DNA of 64,000 nt, taken from positions 1,426,001 through 1,490,000 of the forward strand of contig NC_019701.1 of assembly GCF_000317065.1 (NCBI RefSeq), read 5' to 3'. Below are positions 17,674 to 27,389 of the stretch, piece by piece. A model generated the notes under the pieces. The model was not told the origin of the DNA. It saw only the letters and a program-made list of their open reading frames with translations, and ran no database searches. Positions within the stretch are counted from its first letter, which is position 1. Each line of letters begins with the position of its first letter. The position numbers and the translations under genes are program-made. This stretch comes from Pseudanabaena sp. PCC 7367. GTDB taxonomy: Bacteria; Cyanobacteriota; Cyanobacteriia; Pseudanabaenales; Pseudanabaenaceae.

Positions 17674-19071
17674 CTAGCTAGAAGCTACACCCACTTCTTG
17701 ATCTTCAGCCTCAGCAGCGCTATCTGCCATCTCCGACTCATTCATATCCTCGTCAGCAGCAGCATGAACATCCTCAGGATAATATTTCTCCACCAGTTCA
17801 TCTTTCATTAACAACTCTCCTTTGGAAAAACATTCCGCCAGGGTGCGCCAAGAAAGGTCTAGGGCTTCGTCAAGCCGAATATCGACATTAAAGTCCATAA
17901 ACCGTTTTTTGAATAGCTCACCAAACTGCAATAGTTTCTGATCATTATCGGAAAGATCAAAGGCCATCGCCATTTTCTTCTGGGCTTCCTTGGCACCAGC
18001 GTAGAAACGAATCATGGTGTTCATGATCGCACTGTGGTCATCGCGGGTCTTTTTGCCAATCACCAGTTGCTTCAGACGGGACAATGATCCAAATGGATCG
18101 ATTACGCCATCGTGCAAGTAGAATTGCCCTTCGGTAATATAACCAGTGTTATCAGGTACCGGGTGGGTCACATCATCACCGGGCATGGTAGTTACGGTCA
18201 GGATCGTGACTGAACCAGCCCCCTTAAAATCACAGGCACGTTCATAGCGGAAAGCCAACTTGGAGTAGAGATCGCCCATATAGCCGCGATTGGAAGGAAT
18301 TTGATCCATTGCCACGCCGATCTCCTTGAGCGCATCAGCATAGGCGGTCATATCGGTCATCAATACCAACACCCGTTTGTGTTCTTCGACGGCGAAGCGT
18401 TCAGCTACGGCCAAGGCCAAATCGGGCACTAACACCCGCTCTACGATCGAATCGGAGGCCAGGTTAGCAAACATGATCGTGCGGGAGAACACGCCTTCGT
18501 TCTGGAAGGTGGTGGTAAAGAAATGGAAGTCATCAAAGGTTAGCCCCATGCCGCCAAACACAATAATATCGGCATCAGCCTGAATGCCAATCCGGGCTAG
18601 CAGTTGGTTGTAGGGTTCACCGGCCACTGAAAAAATGGGGATTTTTTGGCTTTCCACCAATGTATTGAAAATATCAATCATGGGGATGTTGGTGCGGATC
18701 ATATTATTTGCCAATACCCGCATCGCCGGATTGATCGAAGGGCCGGCCACTTCAACTTCCCGCTCGGTAGCCAGATCGGGGCCACCATCGATCGGATTGC
18801 CTACGCCACTAAAAATACGTCCCACCATGTTGTAGGAATAAACGGTTTGCATCGGCTTGCCTGTGAAGCTAACCGTGGCACCGGTGGATATACCTTTACC
18901 GCCGGAAAATACCTGTAGGGAAACAACATCGTCCTGGAGTCTGATTACCTGCGCTAAGGATTGATCGCCGTCGGGATTAGAGACGATCGCCAATTCTTCA
19001 TAGCCCACATCTTTAGCTCGAACTTTAACAATGTCGCCATTGATTTCAAGAATGCCTGTGTGTTCAATCAT
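17674..19071 (-). CDS. V/A-type ATP synthase subunit B, solitary
   Basis: This 465-residue protein aligns from end to end with the non-catalytic regulatory subunit B of V- and A-type rotary ATPases. It has MVGRIFSGVGNPIDGGP (82-98), SINPAMR, the P-loop-equivalent PIFSVAGEPYNQLLARIGIQ lacking GK[ST], LVLMTDMTAYADALKEI, the NRGYMGDLYSKLAFRYERA block (261-279), TMPGDDVTHPVPDNTGYITE and SLSRLKQLVIGKKTRDDH. The usual B-subunit loop is GSGLPHN; here it is SVAGEPYN. An acidic tail of about 30 residues follows KYYPED. No other rotary ATPase subunit is found within the window. Cyanobacteria normally rely on F-type synthase, so this gene is unexpected and possibly acquired. Confidence 0.85.
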   Translation of the reverse strand: MIEHTGILEINGDIVKVRAKDVGYEELAIVSNPDGDQSLAQVIRLQDDVVSLQVFSGGKGISTGATVSFTGKPMQTVYSYNMVGRIFSGVGNPIDGGPDLATEREVEVAGPSINPAMRVLANNMIRTNIPMIDIFNTLVESQKIPIFSVAGEPYNQLLARIGIQADADIIVFGGMGLTFDDFHFFTTTFQNEGVFSRTIMFANLASDSIVERVLVPDLALAVAERFAVEEHKRVLVLMTDMTAYADALKEIGVAMDQIPSNRGYMGDLYSKLAFRYERACDFKGAGSVTILTVTTMPGDDVTHPVPDNTGYITEGQFYLHDGVIDPFGSLSRLKQLVIGKKTRDDHSAIMNTMIRFYAGAKEAQKKMAMAFDLSDNDQKLLQFGELFKKRFMDFNVDIRLDEALDLSWRTLAECFSKGELLMKDELVEKYYPEDVHAAADEDMNESEMADSAAEAEDQEVGVASS

Positions 19072-19767: not shown

Positions 19768-20565
19768 ATGAATAGATTGCTTAAAAAACTTATCCCGCTA
19801 ACTACCGTAGCTTTTTTATCGGGCTTATCGGGGGCGATCGCCACGCCAGCGGCCAAAGCTTTTACGATCGATACCTTCGATGATGGTAATGCGGCTTTGC
19901 AAACTACAACTACTGCAAGTGATTTGGATACTGGTTTATCTGGTCCAATAGGAGGTGTTCGGGATTCTAGTCTCACATCCAATAATTTTGTCTTTACCCA
20001 GGCATTTGTAAACAATGATCCACCTGGCCCAGCCGATTTTACGGGTCAACTGGGCTTTGAAGCACTAACTGGTGGCGATGCCACTGTTGATATCCTATAT
20101 GATGCTAATGGCACTGGTTTAGGTGGAGTTGATATAACCGAAGCTGGTGATAATGACAGATTCAGGTTAGCCGTAATTACTGGTAATAACCTACGGACAA
20201 ATAATGGTGGTGGCGTATCATTGACCACTATTCTTCTCACTGTAATTGATGATCAGCTCACACCTGAAACTGCTACAGCTAATGTAAACTTCCCTACTGA
20301 TTCGTTCACGGGTGCATTTGATATTGATTTTGGGCTTTTCACAGCTAATAATGCAAATATTGATTTAACTTCGATCGATTCAATTGAGATTTCAATCAAT
20401 ATCCCTGATAGTGCCCCATCTCAGATTGCACTCGATTCATTCATTGCAACCGTACCTTTCAACTTCCAATCAAGTGCAGGCTTGGCTTTAGCTGGTGGGG
20501 CGTTGGCCGGGTCATATTACTTCAAAAAGAAGAAGAAGGCCGGGAACAAAAAAATCAAAAAGTAG
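19768..20565 (+). CDS. PEP-CTERM-type surface protein, probable cyanoexosortase substrate
   Basis: The protein has 265 residues. It has a cleavable signal peptide (basic MNRLLKKLIP, hydrophobic core, cleavage near ATPAAKA), a beta-rich, Thr/Asn/Asp-rich mature domain, and a C-terminal tripartite sorting signal. That signal is VPFNFQSSAG, then the helix LALAGGALAGSYYF, then a Lys-rich tail of 14 residues. The pattern matches the cyanobacterial PEP-CTERM subclass, whose usual core is PFEFSPxxG. Exosortase is thought to cut at this signal and pass the protein to the cell surface. The exosortase gene follows at once, so this is its obvious substrate. The mature domain is unassigned. Confidence 0.82.
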   Translation: MNRLLKKLIPLTTVAFLSGLSGAIATPAAKAFTIDTFDDGNAALQTTTTASDLDTGLSGPIGGVRDSSLTSNNFVFTQAFVNNDPPGPADFTGQLGFEALTGGDATVDILYDANGTGLGGVDITEAGDNDRFRLAVITGNNLRTNNGGGVSLTTILLTVIDDQLTPETATANVNFPTDSFTGAFDIDFGLFTANNANIDLTSIDSIEISINIPDSAPSQIALDSFIATVPFNFQSSAGLALAGGALAGSYYFKKKKKAGNKKIKK

Positions 20566-20968
20566 TCAGTTAACCGTAAACGGCAAGTTAGATAATCTAG
20601 ATAACTTGGCGATCGATCGTAAAAATCAGCAAGCTTAACTTGAGCCAGGTTAATTCACAAAGACATAAATACCTAGCCATATGGGTATAGTTTTAACAAC
20701 AGCTACTCTAATCATTGTCACTACTAGATCCGACTTGTGATAACTGGCTTAAGATTTTTAGGTAAAGTGTTTTAACTACTTTGGCCGATTGCTAATCATA
20801 CTTGAGGATTAATAATTAGTTAATCTGATGCATTTACAAAATAGGTAATCCAGAATCTGAATACCAAAACTGTGATAATCTATCAGCTTGAATTGGGACT
20901 ATAGTTGTTTTTGAATTTGGGTTAATGCTACTACCGCAGAGCAACGCAATACAATAAGAGCGATAACC
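20566..20968. other. Intergenic region between substrate and exosortase genes
   Basis: About 400 bases without a gene. CAAGTTA/TAACTTG arms at 20584-20590 and 20602-20608 could form a hairpin after the substrate gene, but no T-tract follows directly. The exosortase genes may therefore have their own promoter. Confidence 0.5.
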
Positions 20969-22027
20969 ATGACTATAGAGCCGATCGATTCAGTTGGGTT
21001 AATTAAAGACTATGCCAAGAAAACCGAATTCTGGCTGCTAGCAATCCTGGCAGCCTTAGTTGTTTTACATCTAAATTTGCTGTGGCAATTGACCGGCAAT
21101 GGTGATGCCTTAATCATTCGAGTGGTGTTTTGGGGTGCGATCGCCTATTTAATTTGGAATCGGCGCGATCGGCTGAACTGGCAGAGCGATCCTGTCTCTA
21201 CTGGCATCGGTGGGATTTTAATCTACTGGCTGATGTGGATGAGCATCTCAGCTCATAATCAAGATCCATTGTTTCTGTGGGCCTATCCACCAGTGGCATT
21301 TTTGAGCCTGGGGCTAATTGCTTCTGGCATCAAAGGCTTGTGGCAATATTGGCGGGAATTTATGATTACCCTGATGATTGTGATTCCTGAAGAATGGTAT
21401 ACCTCAACTTTAATGTTTGCCACTGAAAAAGCCCTGAATGTGAATGTGGTGACGGGTAAGATCGCTGCCTTTGCCTTCTGGTATGCCGGCATGGATGTAC
21501 AATCCCAGGGTGCGGTAATTGTGCTTCCCAATGGTGGCGTGCAAGTGGAAACCCATTGTACTGGGTTGGTATTTGTATTTTTGTTGCTGCGCCTGTGTAT
21601 ATTGCTATCGCTGCTGTTTCCTGGCTTTTGGGTGCGTAAAAGCACTCTATTTCTGGGCACGGGCATCCTGGCCTATTTGCTGGGGGCAGTGCGGGTGATG
21701 CTCTTGGCGTTGGTGGTACATAATCAGCCTGTCTTTGACTATTGGCATGGTGATTCGGGCTCGCAGATTTTTTCGACTATCTCGATCCTGATTTTTGGGA
21801 TTATGTGCAAATTTATCTTGCTCGATCGGATCTTTGATGACCATGAATCTAATCCAAGTGAAGAGTTCGATCTTTATTTTGAAGACTATGACTATGAAGA
21901 TCCAGAAGCATCAGAAGCAGAATTTCAAATGGTGGCCGAATCAAGCGAGGCTGATCCCATCGCATCAATAAACCAAAATCAAACTAAAGTTGATCCTGAT
22001 CAGTCTGCTAACCTCCAAAAATCATAG
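20969..22027 (+). CDS. crtA: Cyanoexosortase A, membrane transpeptidase-like enzyme
   Basis: This 352-residue integral membrane protein has about eight hydrophobic segments and the exosortase active site. Cys197 lies in VETHCTGL, Arg242 in GAVRVMLLAL and His260 in YWHGDSGSQIFS. These are the Cys, Arg and His common to exosortases and archaeosortases, which process C-terminal sorting signals at the outer face of the inner membrane. The acidic tail of about 70 residues (FDLYFEDYDYEDPEASEAE) is an addition with no known role. The next gene encodes the protein that always accompanies the cyanoexosortase A subtype, which supports the subtype call. Activity of exosortases is inferred from family knowledge. 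Confidence 0.88.
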   Translation: MTIEPIDSVGLIKDYAKKTEFWLLAILAALVVLHLNLLWQLTGNGDALIIRVVFWGAIAYLIWNRRDRLNWQSDPVSTGIGGILIYWLMWMSISAHNQDPLFLWAYPPVAFLSLGLIASGIKGLWQYWREFMITLMIVIPEEWYTSTLMFATEKALNVNVVTGKIAAFAFWYAGMDVQSQGAVIVLPNGGVQVETHCTGLVFVFLLLRLCILLSLLFPGFWVRKSTLFLGTGILAYLLGAVRVMLLALVVHNQPVFDYWHGDSGSQIFSTISILIFGIMCKFILLDRIFDDHESNPSEEFDLYFEDYDYEDPEASEAEFQMVAESSEADPIASINQNQTKVDPDQSANLQKS

Positions 22028-22075
22028 CCAAAAATCATATAAACATGGCAGCTAGCATAGCTCTTAGATAGCGAC

Positions 22076-22795
22076 ATGAACAAGATTCGACTTCCATTAT
22101 TAGCAGCTATTTGTGGCAGTATAGTCCTAGTATTTGGGGCATCGTTGCTGAACCTGAAAGTGGGCGATCGTGCCTTTAAATTACCTGAACAAGCCCCCCT
22201 CGATGGCTGGCAACTGCAAGACAGCAAGCCAATTAGCACTGAGCCCAAGGCGATCGGTGAAGAAGATGAGCCAGTCGCTGAAACAGTAATTATTGCCAAA
22301 CATTATCAATATAGCCAGGGCGATCGCCGCCTGGATCTAGAAATACGCTACATTGCCAATTCCTATGGCCAAATTCCAGCAATTATTCCCGCCTACACCA
22401 ACATTGCCGATCCAGAATTCCAGGAAATTATTGGTGATAATATGACTAGCCTAAAAAAGTCGATCGATGGGATTGGTTCCTATAATCTATTTAGCTATCA
22501 GAACAAAGCTTATTTGAGCACTTGTATTACACCCTATGGCACCATTATCGCCAATCAGGATGACTTTTTTATTAATCTACGCACCAGTCAAAGCCTGAAA
22601 GCTAATTTGTTACCCTGGGCACTGGGACAAACTCCCTTGCGCGATCGGCGTTGTGTTTGGGCACATTTATATATAAACATTGACCCCAACCAAAATGGAG
22701 CTGAAGCACAGGCATATGAAACCCTAGAAGCCAGCCTGGGTAATTTAAGTCAATGGTGGCGATCGCAACTCCTGCCTGCCAATCAAAATTCCTAG
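22076..22795 (+). CDS. Cyanoexosortase A system-associated protein
   Basis: The protein has 239 residues, with one N-terminal membrane anchor (LPLLAAICGSIVLVFGASLL) and a periplasmic domain of about 210 residues. It contains FKLPEQAPLDGWQL, CITPYGTI, and DRRCVWAHLYINI, in which two Cys could form a disulphide. The layout and the position 48 bases after the exosortase gene match the family found only beside cyanoexosortase A, and distantly the EpsI-like partners of other exosortases. It probably assists processing or links it to polysaccharide export; the mechanism is not known. It is almost certainly in one operon with the exosortase. Confidence 0.8.
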   Translation: MNKIRLPLLAAICGSIVLVFGASLLNLKVGDRAFKLPEQAPLDGWQLQDSKPISTEPKAIGEEDEPVAETVIIAKHYQYSQGDRRLDLEIRYIANSYGQIPAIIPAYTNIADPEFQEIIGDNMTSLKKSIDGIGSYNLFSYQNKAYLSTCITPYGTIIANQDDFFINLRTSQSLKANLLPWALGQTPLRDRRCVWAHLYINIDPNQNGAEAQAYETLEASLGNLSQWWRSQLLPANQNS

Positions 22796-22933
22796 CGATC
22801 GATCAACCTAATTTTCACTTAAATTAGTTAAAGAATTAGGCAAAGTTAGAACTGAATCACCAAAGCGCCTGAGCGCCTGAGCGCCAGATCGCCGGATATA
22901 TCTTTAAAATAGCCATAATAGCCATTCAATCCC

Positions 22934-22965
22934 AGTTAAATAACCGGTTAAATAACCAGTTAAAT
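22934..22965. repeat. 12 bp tandem repeat upstream of the HpsJ-like gene
   Basis: AGTTAAATAACC (22934-22945), GGTTAAATAACC (22946-22957) and AGTTAAAT (22958-22965) follow each other without gap. A second short array with an 8 bp unit (GCGCCTGA) lies just upstream near 22865-22885. Confidence 0.8.
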
Positions 22966-23014
22966 GCCCATTGCAATGATCACAAAGAAGCAAGAGACTA
23001 TCCAAATTTAAGGC

Positions 23015-23743
23015 ATGACTATCAATAAAGCTGTACAAGCAAACCTCCGAAATACTGATGAACCGAATGAGTGGAGCGAACTGAAGTCGATTGGTTTAAT
23101 TCGCATGGTTGGCTATTGCCTCTTGCTGTTAGCCCTAATCGATTTCTTCTACACCCTGCTTCCGCCTCAGTTCATGGAACCACAATGGGAGCTAACCACA
23201 ATCAAAACGATCGTCGAGCGGGTGCCAGTGCCCTTAATCGGTCTGGCTCTGGTGTTCTATCGCGGTGAAACGGCACGCCAGCATCGGGAAGTGATTGTGC
23301 TGAAGGTGCTTTCCTGGTTTTGTATGATTGCGGCGGTAGTATTTTTCCTGCTGGTGCCGCTGACCGTCAGTAATACCCTACGGCTCGATAATCTCAATGC
23401 GGTGGAACTAGAGAATCAACTACTCCAGCAAAAAGCGCAAGTAGATGCCGTACGCGACAAGCTGGAACAAACTAGTGATAGCAATATTGTTCAATTGATT
23501 GAACAACTAGAGGCGCAGGGGCAAAATGAAGATATTGAGACTCCCGATCAGTTCAGGGCTCAGGTTTCCTCTGAGTTGGCCACAGCCGAACAAGCAGGTC
23601 AATCCCTGGCGGATCAGACCTTGACTGCACAGCGCCTGGGGCTGGCTAAAAATGCTGCTAAATGGGTATTAGGGGCATTTATTGCCGGATTATTGTTTGT
23701 GCGAATGTGGCAGATAACTGGCTGGGTGAGGGATTTGGTTTAG
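23015..23743 (+). CDS. HpsJ-like protein, cyanoexosortase A-associated type
   Basis: The protein has 242 residues. Membrane helices lie at about 30-50 (VGYCLLLLALIDFFYTLLP), 70-82, 95-118 (VLKVLSWFCMIAAVVFFLLV) and near the C terminus (KWVLGAFIAGLLFVRMW). A coiled-coil region of about 85 residues sits between helices three and four. This matches the HpsJ family, first described in hormogonium polysaccharide export in Nostoc, of which a subgroup accompanies cyanoexosortases. It probably shares the operon of the exosortase genes, with a gap of 219 bases that holds short repeats. A structural role in the export or sorting complex is inferred. Confidence 0.72.
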   Translation: MTINKAVQANLRNTDEPNEWSELKSIGLIRMVGYCLLLLALIDFFYTLLPPQFMEPQWELTTIKTIVERVPVPLIGLALVFYRGETARQHREVIVLKVLSWFCMIAAVVFFLLVPLTVSNTLRLDNLNAVELENQLLQQKAQVDAVRDKLEQTSDSNIVQLIEQLEAQGQNEDIETPDQFRAQVSSELATAEQAGQSLADQTLTAQRLGLAKNAAKWVLGAFIAGLLFVRMWQITGWVRDLV

Positions 23744-23774: not shown

Positions 23775-25172
23775 TTAGCTCATTTTTAATTTAAATAATA
23801 AAAACTGAGTAACCTGGCGATCGTTAAAATTATCATCACTCACCAGAATCAGACTGTCTGAACCATCGGCAAACTTTGGCCCCAGGGTCATACCCTCCAC
23901 ATTATCAATTCTGATGCCAAGGTCTTGTAAGTCGAATAATAGCCGCTTAGCGATCGGTTGGATGTTTGGCAAATTGCCACTCAAACTATCGATCGAAGAC
24001 ACGTCGTTTGCCCCACCCACCGCAATCTGAAAGATTTTGCCGTTTAAGCGATTCTCAGCAATGTAATAGGCTCGCTCCAGACTGAGGAAATGGCCACCAT
24101 GATCAAGGGCAAGCATCTCCACCAGGCCATTACCACCATCGATCGGCTCTGGCTCCAACACATACATATGCTCAGAGACCAGGAATGGTTTACCAATCCC
24201 CAAGCCAAAATGAACAAATCGGCTATTGAGTCTGGTTTGATTAAATTCTGAATCAGTTGAATTTTGGGCTTCTGATTGCCCTAATTGCTCTAATTGCTCT
24301 AATTGCTCTAATTGCTCTAATTGATCTGCTTGCTCTGGGGGTTGATCCTCAGGGGCGTTTGCCAGAGCAGGTAAGTTTTGATCCTGAAACAGGGCATTTT
24401 CAGTGGCTACAAATACCCGAAATGGATCGGTGCTAGCCTCTTTAACCAGAGTCAAAGATTCAAAGCCAAGATTGTTCTGTACCCCCTGAGCGCCTGGTTG
24501 CTCTGGATCAGTCAAAAAACGCTGCGGCAGGGGCAAATATTGGCGTAGTTGACCAGTAGCCAACTCAAATTCACCCACAAATGGATCAACCCCATCTTTA
24601 CTAACTCCCTCACTGGCAATAAATACGGTATTACGCGGCGAGATCGCCAAACCCTCTGGATCGATCGTGCCAGGGGCATAAAAGTCGCCATGATCATTTT
24701 TGAGAAAAGTCACCCCTGTAACGGCTATATCCTCAAAACCTAACTCTGATGGTTCTTGATCATCGACACCATCCAATCGTTGGGTAGGATCTTGGCCAAG
24801 TCCCTTGAATTGAATTTTCAAGGTATAGAAACGAGCCGGCGCAAAATCGCTTCGATCATCGCTGATTGTATAGAAATAGAACGATCGCGGCTGATCGGCA
24901 GTAGCTGGCACTGAATGATCATCAAGGCCATCTAAATTCGGCTCATAGGCAGGATCATAGGCGATCGCCGACAAGCCACCAATCCTGGTATCCTCAAATT
25001 CATCCTGTTGGAGTTGATACTCATCCACAAACTCCAGCGAAACACGCTCAAACCCCCGCTCTGCAGCAATCGATCGGGACACATTACAAGCACTACAAAA
25101 TAACGATAATAAGAGTACTGGAATTAAAATTAGTTGCCGTGATCGCCAAAATATTTTAAAGGGCATAATCAA
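23775..25172 (-). CDS. Exported phytase-like esterase domain protein
   Basis: This 465-residue protein has a signal sequence ending in CSAC, a lipobox-like site (Cys29), and a long domain matching the 'esterase-like activity of phytase' family. The matching segments are IGGLSAIAYDP, FYTISDDRS, DPEGLAISP, VFIASEGV, LGFESLTLV and VEGMTLGP. These are beta-propeller-like calcium-binding proteins thought to hydrolyse phosphate esters or related substrates outside the cytoplasm. The stretch LEQLEQLEQLEQLGQ is encoded by a 9 bp repeat inside an acidic insert. It is convergent with the HpsJ-like gene with only 31 bases between the stop codons. Substrate unknown. Confidence 0.75.
   Translation of the reverse strand: MIMPFKIFWRSRQLILIPVLLLSLFCSACNVSRSIAAERGFERVSLEFVDEYQLQQDEFEDTRIGGLSAIAYDPAYEPNLDGLDDHSVPATADQPRSFYFYTISDDRSDFAPARFYTLKIQFKGLGQDPTQRLDGVDDQEPSELGFEDIAVTGVTFLKNDHGDFYAPGTIDPEGLAISPRNTVFIASEGVSKDGVDPFVGEFELATGQLRQYLPLPQRFLTDPEQPGAQGVQNNLGFESLTLVKEASTDPFRVFVATENALFQDQNLPALANAPEDQPPEQADQLEQLEQLEQLEQLGQSEAQNSTDSEFNQTRLNSRFVHFGLGIGKPFLVSEHMYVLEPEPIDGGNGLVEMLALDHGGHFLSLERAYYIAENRLNGKIFQIAVGGANDVSSIDSLSGNLPNIQPIAKRLLFDLQDLGIRIDNVEGMTLGPKFADGSDSLILVSDDNFNDRQVTQFLLFKLKMS
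23779..23809. terminator. Hairpin at the convergent gene ends
   Basis: CTCATTTTTA (23779-23788) and TAAAAACTGAG (23799-23809) pair with one bulged base. The hairpin lies over the last codons of the phytase-like gene and just beyond the HpsJ-like gene, so it could stop transcription from either side. Confidence 0.45.
24282..24326. repeat. 9 bp coding microsatellite (LEQ repeat)
   Basis: Four exact TAATTGCTC units and one imperfect unit in tandem. They encode Leu-Glu-Gln repeats on the minus strand. Unit length keeps the frame, so copy number may vary. Confidence 0.9.
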
Positions 25173-25907: not shown

Positions 25908-27389
25908 TTGCGAATTCTGATTTATGGCATTAATTATGCGCCTGAAATCACTGGGATTGGTAAATATACCAGTGAGATGTGTGAGTGGCTGCGTCAGCAA
26001 GGTCACGAGATTCGGGTAGTTACTGCACCACCCTATTATCCTAAATGGGAGGTGGCAGAAGGCTATAGGGGCTGGCAGTACAAACAGGAAACGATCGCGG
26101 ATATTAAGCTCTATCGCTGTCCTCTGTGGGTGCCTAGCCAACTCACTGGTGCCAAGCGCCTCTTGCATCTTTTTTCTTTTGCGATTACCAGTTTGCCAGT
26201 AATCCTGTGGCAAGGATTATGGTGGCGGCCCGATCTGGTCTGGTTAGTTGCACCAACCTTGTTTGCTGTACCGGGAGCCTGGCTGGCAGCGGCAATAGGT
26301 GGTGCTAAATCCTGGCTCCACATCCAAGATTTTGAGGTAGATGCTGCGTTTGATCTGGGCATTCTGTCAGGTAAATTCAGGCGATCGCTAGTCTGTGGCC
26401 TGGAGCGATGGCTATTGCGCCGATTCGATCGGGTCTCGTCAATCACGACCAAAATGGTGCAACGGCTCAGGCACAAGCGATTAGACCAGCGGAAACTGTT
26501 GCTTTTCCCCAACTGGGTTGATACCAGTCAAATTTATCCACTCCGATATCCCAGGCACCCCAACCCGCTCAGAAAGCAACTGGGCATTCCCGCTAATAAA
26601 ACAGTAGTGCTTTATTCGGGCAATATGGGGCGTAAGCAGGGTCTAGAAATTGCGATCGAGGCTGCCCACCAATTGCAACAAGAAGCTTTAGCCTCATCCT
26701 CATCCCTGCGATCGATTCAAGCTGAACCTCAACAAACACCATCCGCACAAGGCAAGTTTGAACCGCGATCGGTGCAACTAGAAACACCAATCGAATTACA
26801 CTCAAATTCAACTGCGGATGTTCAGGTTGCAGGCGAAATCATGTTTATACTCTGTGGTGATGGCATGATGAAGGGGCATTTACAACATCGGGCAGAGCAG
26901 TTGGGGCTCAACAATGTCAAGTTCCTACCGTTGCAGCCGATCGAACAACTAAATAATTTACTGAACCTGGCCGATATTCATATTCTGCCGCAGAAAGCTG
27001 ATGTATCTGACCAAGTGATGCCATCGAAGCTGGCGGGGATTTTAGCCTGTGGTGGGGCTGTAGTTGCCACAGCTCATCCAAATACCGAACTGGCGAATGT
27101 GGTGACTGCCGCTGGTGGCCAGGTCTGTCCGCCGGAAAATGTAAATTGTTTTACCAAGGGCATTAAGTATTTGGCAACAAATCGTCAAGCTAGGACAGAA
27201 ATAAAACGCTGCGCTCGCCAATATGCAATCAATCATCTTGATCGGCGCAAAATCCTATCTGATTTTGAACGAGAGCTACAAAAGCTTTGTGCCATGCTTG
27301 GCACTGAAATGCCAGGTCAATCGTCTGATCAACGGCAAGATACCAAGAATAAGCTAACTTCTGCTCAGCCACCCCGAAATTATTATTAA
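25908..27389 (+). CDS. WcaI-type glycosyltransferase (GT4 family)
   Basis: A protein of 493 residues. The N terminus MRILIYGINYAPEITGIGKY and the blocks TAPPYYPKW, LHIQDFEVDAAFDLG and PNWVD are those of the WcaI family of colanic-acid-type exopolysaccharide synthesis. The GT-B donor half has YSGNMGRKQGLE, FILCGDG and DVSDQVMPSKLAGILACGGAV. The start is TTG, supported by homology at the first residue and by a G-rich ribosome binding site. A low-complexity stretch of about 50 residues (259-308) is inserted between two strands of the donor half. Context with the tyrosine kinase downstream suggests exopolysaccharide repeat-unit assembly in the cytoplasm. Confidence 0.87.
   Translation: MRILIYGINYAPEITGIGKYTSEMCEWLRQQGHEIRVVTAPPYYPKWEVAEGYRGWQYKQETIADIKLYRCPLWVPSQLTGAKRLLHLFSFAITSLPVILWQGLWWRPDLVWLVAPTLFAVPGAWLAAAIGGAKSWLHIQDFEVDAAFDLGILSGKFRRSLVCGLERWLLRRFDRVSSITTKMVQRLRHKRLDQRKLLLFPNWVDTSQIYPLRYPRHPNPLRKQLGIPANKTVVLYSGNMGRKQGLEIAIEAAHQLQQEALASSSSLRSIQAEPQQTPSAQGKFEPRSVQLETPIELHSNSTADVQVAGEIMFILCGDGMMKGHLQHRAEQLGLNNVKFLPLQPIEQLNNLLNLADIHILPQKADVSDQVMPSKLAGILACGGAVVATAHPNTELANVVTAAGGQVCPPENVNCFTKGIKYLATNRQARTEIKRCARQYAINHLDRRKILSDFERELQKLCAMLGTEMPGQSSDQRQDTKNKLTSAQPPRNYY

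Follow-up and report, generated by a model that had tools for sequence, protein, structure and literature searches.

Four genes lie in line on the plus strand of the window (the whole 64,000-nucleotide stretch of DNA analysed). Open reading frames were assigned by using NCBIfam profiles at curated cut-offs, which all four proteins exceed; the compact four-gene island of the original prediction is thereby confirmed. Its features are as follows:

19768..20565, plus strand: PFE-CTERM substrate, 265 aa (NF050011, 31.3 bits, cut-off 24), consisting of an N-terminal signal peptide, a secreted part of ~195 residues, the PFNFQSS motif, a transmembrane (TM) helix and the tail KKKKKAGNKKIKK
20452..20562, plus strand: C-terminal sorting signal of the substrate, consisting of VPFNFQSS, a hydrophobic helix and a basic 13-residue tail (+9) (HMM match, residues 229-256)
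20969..22027, plus strand: cyanoexosortase A (CrtA), 352 aa (TIGR03763, 175.2 bits, cut-off 150; PF09721, 116 bits)
21824..22024, plus strand: acidic C-terminal extension of CrtA, residues 286-352 (from charge count, predicted topology, pLDDT and orthologue tails)
22076..22795, plus strand: cyanoexosortase A system-associated protein (TIGR04153, 124 bits, cut-off 100)
23015..23743, plus strand: HpsJ-like protein, cyanoexosortase A-associated (NF050013 HpsJ_like_A, 261 bits, cut-off 140)

Judged by these assignments, the island is an ordinary cyanobacterial protein-sorting gene cluster of the cyanoexosortase A/PFE-CTERM type, a known system. As in other cyanoexosortase A loci, CrtA is accompanied by both TIGR04153 and HpsJ-like (NF050013) neighbours in the usual order and has the Cys/Arg/His residues; it differs by its C-terminal extension of about 67 residues. 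The order CrtA-TIGR04153-HpsJ is kept across cyanobacteria, and the HpsJ-like gene is retained downstream of CrtA in many loci. The TIGR04153 protein has a single N-terminal TM segment followed by a predicted periplasmic domain. Because the intergenic gaps measure 403, 48 and 219 nt, transcription of the four genes as a single unit is uncertain. Predicted promoter sites in the island were no more numerous than in shuffled sequence, terminators likewise gave no clear excess, and no Rfam elements were found there. In the collection of papers searched, none dealt with PFE-CTERM and none joined Pseudanabaena with exosortase. Upstream, on the minus strand, this cyanobacterium has a gene for V-type ATP synthase subunit B (17674-19071), with that for subunit A about 1.8 Mb away, at G000:C2:3277749. 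Downstream, also on the minus strand, a phytase-like esterase gene (PF13449; 23775-25172) contains a nine-base tandem repeat (24270-24330) encoding EQLEQLEQL...

The triad Cys197/Arg242/His260 was found at the positions originally given, and is invariant in CrtA alignments of seven and of 15 sequences. Archaeosortase A of Haloferax has Cys/Arg/His residues as well, its active-site Cys being predicted to face the cell exterior (PMC4343526), but is archaeal and has PGF-CTERM substrates. The positive-inside rule predicts that loops 64-75 (NRRDRLNWQSDP) and about 218-229 (PGFWVRKSTLFL) of CrtA are cytoplasmic and that Cys197 and the His260 loop are periplasmic; we infer a topology in which the acidic extension would also lie on the cytoplasmic side. 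In Anabaena, Dolichospermum and one further genome (L186, L188, L189, L106), a single ORF of ~526-543 aa combines CrtA with TIGR04153. These fusions have an extra hydrophobic (TM) helix at the junction, accompanied in Anabaena/Dolichospermum by a basic linker, an arrangement consistent with the CrtA core ending in the cytoplasm. The AlphaFold model of CrtA has a helical core (whole-chain mean pLDDT 76) and is of low confidence past about residue 281. Sequence search found no relatives of CrtA with solved structures, and a fold search with the model, built from 15 sequences only (pTM 0.58), found none either (best E 1.6).

The genome of the window (G000; 4.89 Mb, two contigs) encodes only one intact exosortase. 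A second, frameshifted crtA remnant is located on the minus strand at L022:5698-5917 (G000:C2:about 2187697-2187916); it corresponds to the first 58-73 codons, has 76.6% DNA identity across 192 bp, and is flanked by genes for a metal P-type ATPase and for a small, lipoprotein-like protein that contains cysteine. CrtB was not found in this genome, nor was any protein matching the classic PEP-CTERM signal (TIGR02595). In Nostoc punctiforme, deletion of crtB affects motility and biofilm as well as the extracellular PEP-CTERM proteins (PMC12188702); CrtB is of the same exosortase family, but is a distant paralogue that serves PEP-CTERM and not PFE-CTERM proteins.

PFE-CTERM C-termini were found in 16 proteins encoded on both contigs, 15 above the cut-off and one, with PFQFHAS, narrowly under it at 23.4 bits. 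The description of the island as having one adjacent substrate is therefore correct locally but not genome-wide, and the adjacent protein is one of many presumed clients. It belongs to the family by motif, TM helix and basic tail as well as by score. Like the NF050011 signal it has PFxF; it differs in having N-F-Q-S-S for E-F-S-P-S, a difference common to a paralogue in the genome (PFNFQST, G000:C2:1918808; phmmer, E about 4e-10). PFNFQSS had been regarded as a variant signal; since this genome also has PFNFQST and PFNFSSS, and a relative has PFNMQST, it is an ordinary family member. As to the supposedly unusually long Lys-rich tail, only the charge stands out (+9, the highest of the 16; mean +5.6), whereas the length of 13 residues compares with a genome mean of 14.9 (n=16), and an unusual tail was rejected on that ground. 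In sorting signals of this kind, a basic tail usually serves for stop-transfer.

Related CrtA loci were searched for with a three-sequence alignment, and 31 Pseudanabaenaceae genomes were tested for PFE-CTERM proteins. Three CrtA types were counted as PFE partners: the window/G001 type, a second, non-acidic type and the split gene of G006. PFE-CTERM proteins were present in 19/19 genomes with a PFE-partner CrtA and in 0/12 without (Fisher p 7e-9, uncorrected for genome relatedness and with CrtA types grouped after the tree had been seen). Their presence tracks these types, acidic-tailed or not, in 31/31 genomes. In the tree, CrtA of the window groups with the CrtA proteins of G001, G203 and G101 (support 96/92), and all three of these genomes have PFE-CTERM proteins. 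A separate clade of acidic-tailed Pseudanabaena CrtA comprises L023, L025-L034, L036 and L037; no TIGR04153/HpsJ gene was detected for this clade in flanks of 1.5 kb or less, and PFE-CTERM proteins are missing from genomes in which it is the sole CrtA type. Both types occur together in G036 and G037, where TIGR04153 and HpsJ genes lie beside the acidic-tailed CrtA as well. The split gene (G006:C3:844495-845290, L044) consists of two overlapping reading-frame pieces, one with an internal stop; this could reflect a frameshift, an error in sequencing or recent breakage of the enzyme. Its genome has 11 PFE-CTERM matches.

The extra acidic tail of about 70 residues ascribed to the exosortase is indeed present: residues 286-352 contain 20 D/E and 3 K/R (net -17). 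No other unfused CrtA tail compared is as long or as acidic; nearly all have 2-36 residues past the last helix. Among other cyanobacterial CrtA proteins, tail charge runs from -13 to +8 and is mostly near neutral. The sister CrtA in G001 ends in PADPEDFDPTEDFDPDEEFQES (-11), acidic like the window tail and much shorter, and the separate Pseudanabaena clade has short acidic ends such as TRDDDDEYEEA (-5 to -12); going by these two observations, selection may for some reason favour acidity in Pseudanabaenaceae. Tail length is poorly conserved among CrtA proteins, pLDDT of the extension is low (about 44-67 per block), and third-position G+C is 0.30 in the tail versus 0.53 in the body. Composition, unconserved length and low pLDDT would all fit a functionless extension, that is, a neutral run-on into once-intergenic AT-rich sequence; set against the D/E enrichment (20/67) and the acidic, though much shorter, sister tail, this reading is quite possible without being probable. 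We are equally tentative about a role unconnected with substrates, for example in membrane insertion or topology, in stability, or in interaction with the HpsJ-like partner or with cytoplasmic proteins of polysaccharide synthesis. Speaking for such a role, Pseudanabaenaceae CrtA proteins retain acidic C-termini across differing substrate repertoires, and the window has a gene for a WcaI-type glycosyltransferase (25908-27389), but CrtA elsewhere copes with 2-16 near-neutral residues past the last helix. Overall, the extension is best explained as an enlarged, disordered and lineage-specific form of the short acidic C-terminus of Pseudanabaenaceae CrtA; it is probably a minor feature, one unusual point of the island, and probably not a conserved determinant of substrate recognition.

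It had been proposed that the oppositely charged tails of enzyme and substrate could meet in the cytoplasm. Both tails are predicted to be there, so contact is geometrically possible, but charge pairing finds no support across genomes. Conservation of acidic with basic tails was contradicted by the observation named beforehand as its refutation, equally basic substrates beside neutral-tailed CrtA. Such substrates accompany CrtA tails without strong acidity in G101 and G203 (each +1), G227 (0 and -4), G318 (-2 to -4) and G006 (-1), and CrtA tails of +2 in Pseudanabaena G013, G014 and G018; many neutral CrtA tails (-4 to +3) were found in genomes with equally basic PFE-CTERM substrates (about +5). 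The mean substrate tail per genome is about +2 to +6 whether the CrtA tail is -17, -11, near 0 or +3. Conversely, G008, G015 and G025 have only acidic-tailed CrtA, and PFE-CTERM proteins are absent. Charge pairing as a general rule was rejected, since CrtA and substrate tail charges were not correlated across the 18 genomes compared (Spearman rho -0.33, p 0.19; -0.22, p 0.40 without the window genome). These results make it very improbable that PFE-CTERM substrates dock electrostatically on the extension through their basic cytoplasmic tails, even though, besides the opposite charges and shared compartment, the most acidic CrtA tail found occurs together with the most basic of that genome's own substrate tails (+9), and sister genome G001, with PFE-CTERM substrates, shares the acidic tail. 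A narrower proposal, in which the extension forms a substrate-holding or partner-binding arm on a standard exosortase in the window genome and the G001 MAG lineage only, is also considered very unlikely to be correct.

Very probably, the locus is a typical cyanoexosortase A/PFE-CTERM island in which the basic tail serves mainly for stop-transfer and the extension is lineage-specific and probably not a recognition determinant. This reading draws on the family matches above cut-off, the invariant Cys/Arg/His residues, the single exosortase with 16 PFE-CTERM and no classic PEP-CTERM proteins, the conserved gene order and CrtA-TIGR04153 fusions, the 19/19 versus 0/12 split, the 96/92 clustering, and the poorly conserved length and low pLDDT of the tail. 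By analogy with the family, substrates would cross the inner membrane by Sec and be held by the C-terminal helix and the basic cytoplasmic tail, whose lysines would act mainly as a stop-transfer or orientation signal. CrtA, with Cys197 on the periplasmic face together with Arg242 and His260, would then cut at the PFxF motif and, assisted by the TIGR04153 and HpsJ-like proteins, release the protein or transfer it, with a surface glycan or lipid as the probable acceptor. The expected clients of CrtA are about 16 secreted proteins, whose C-terminal tags it would trim; one of them is encoded next to it. In Pseudanabaenaceae, PFE-CTERM follows one set of CrtA proteins and not the separate acidic-tailed clade, which mostly has no TIGR04153/HpsJ neighbours; this suggests that the two CrtA types serve different clients.
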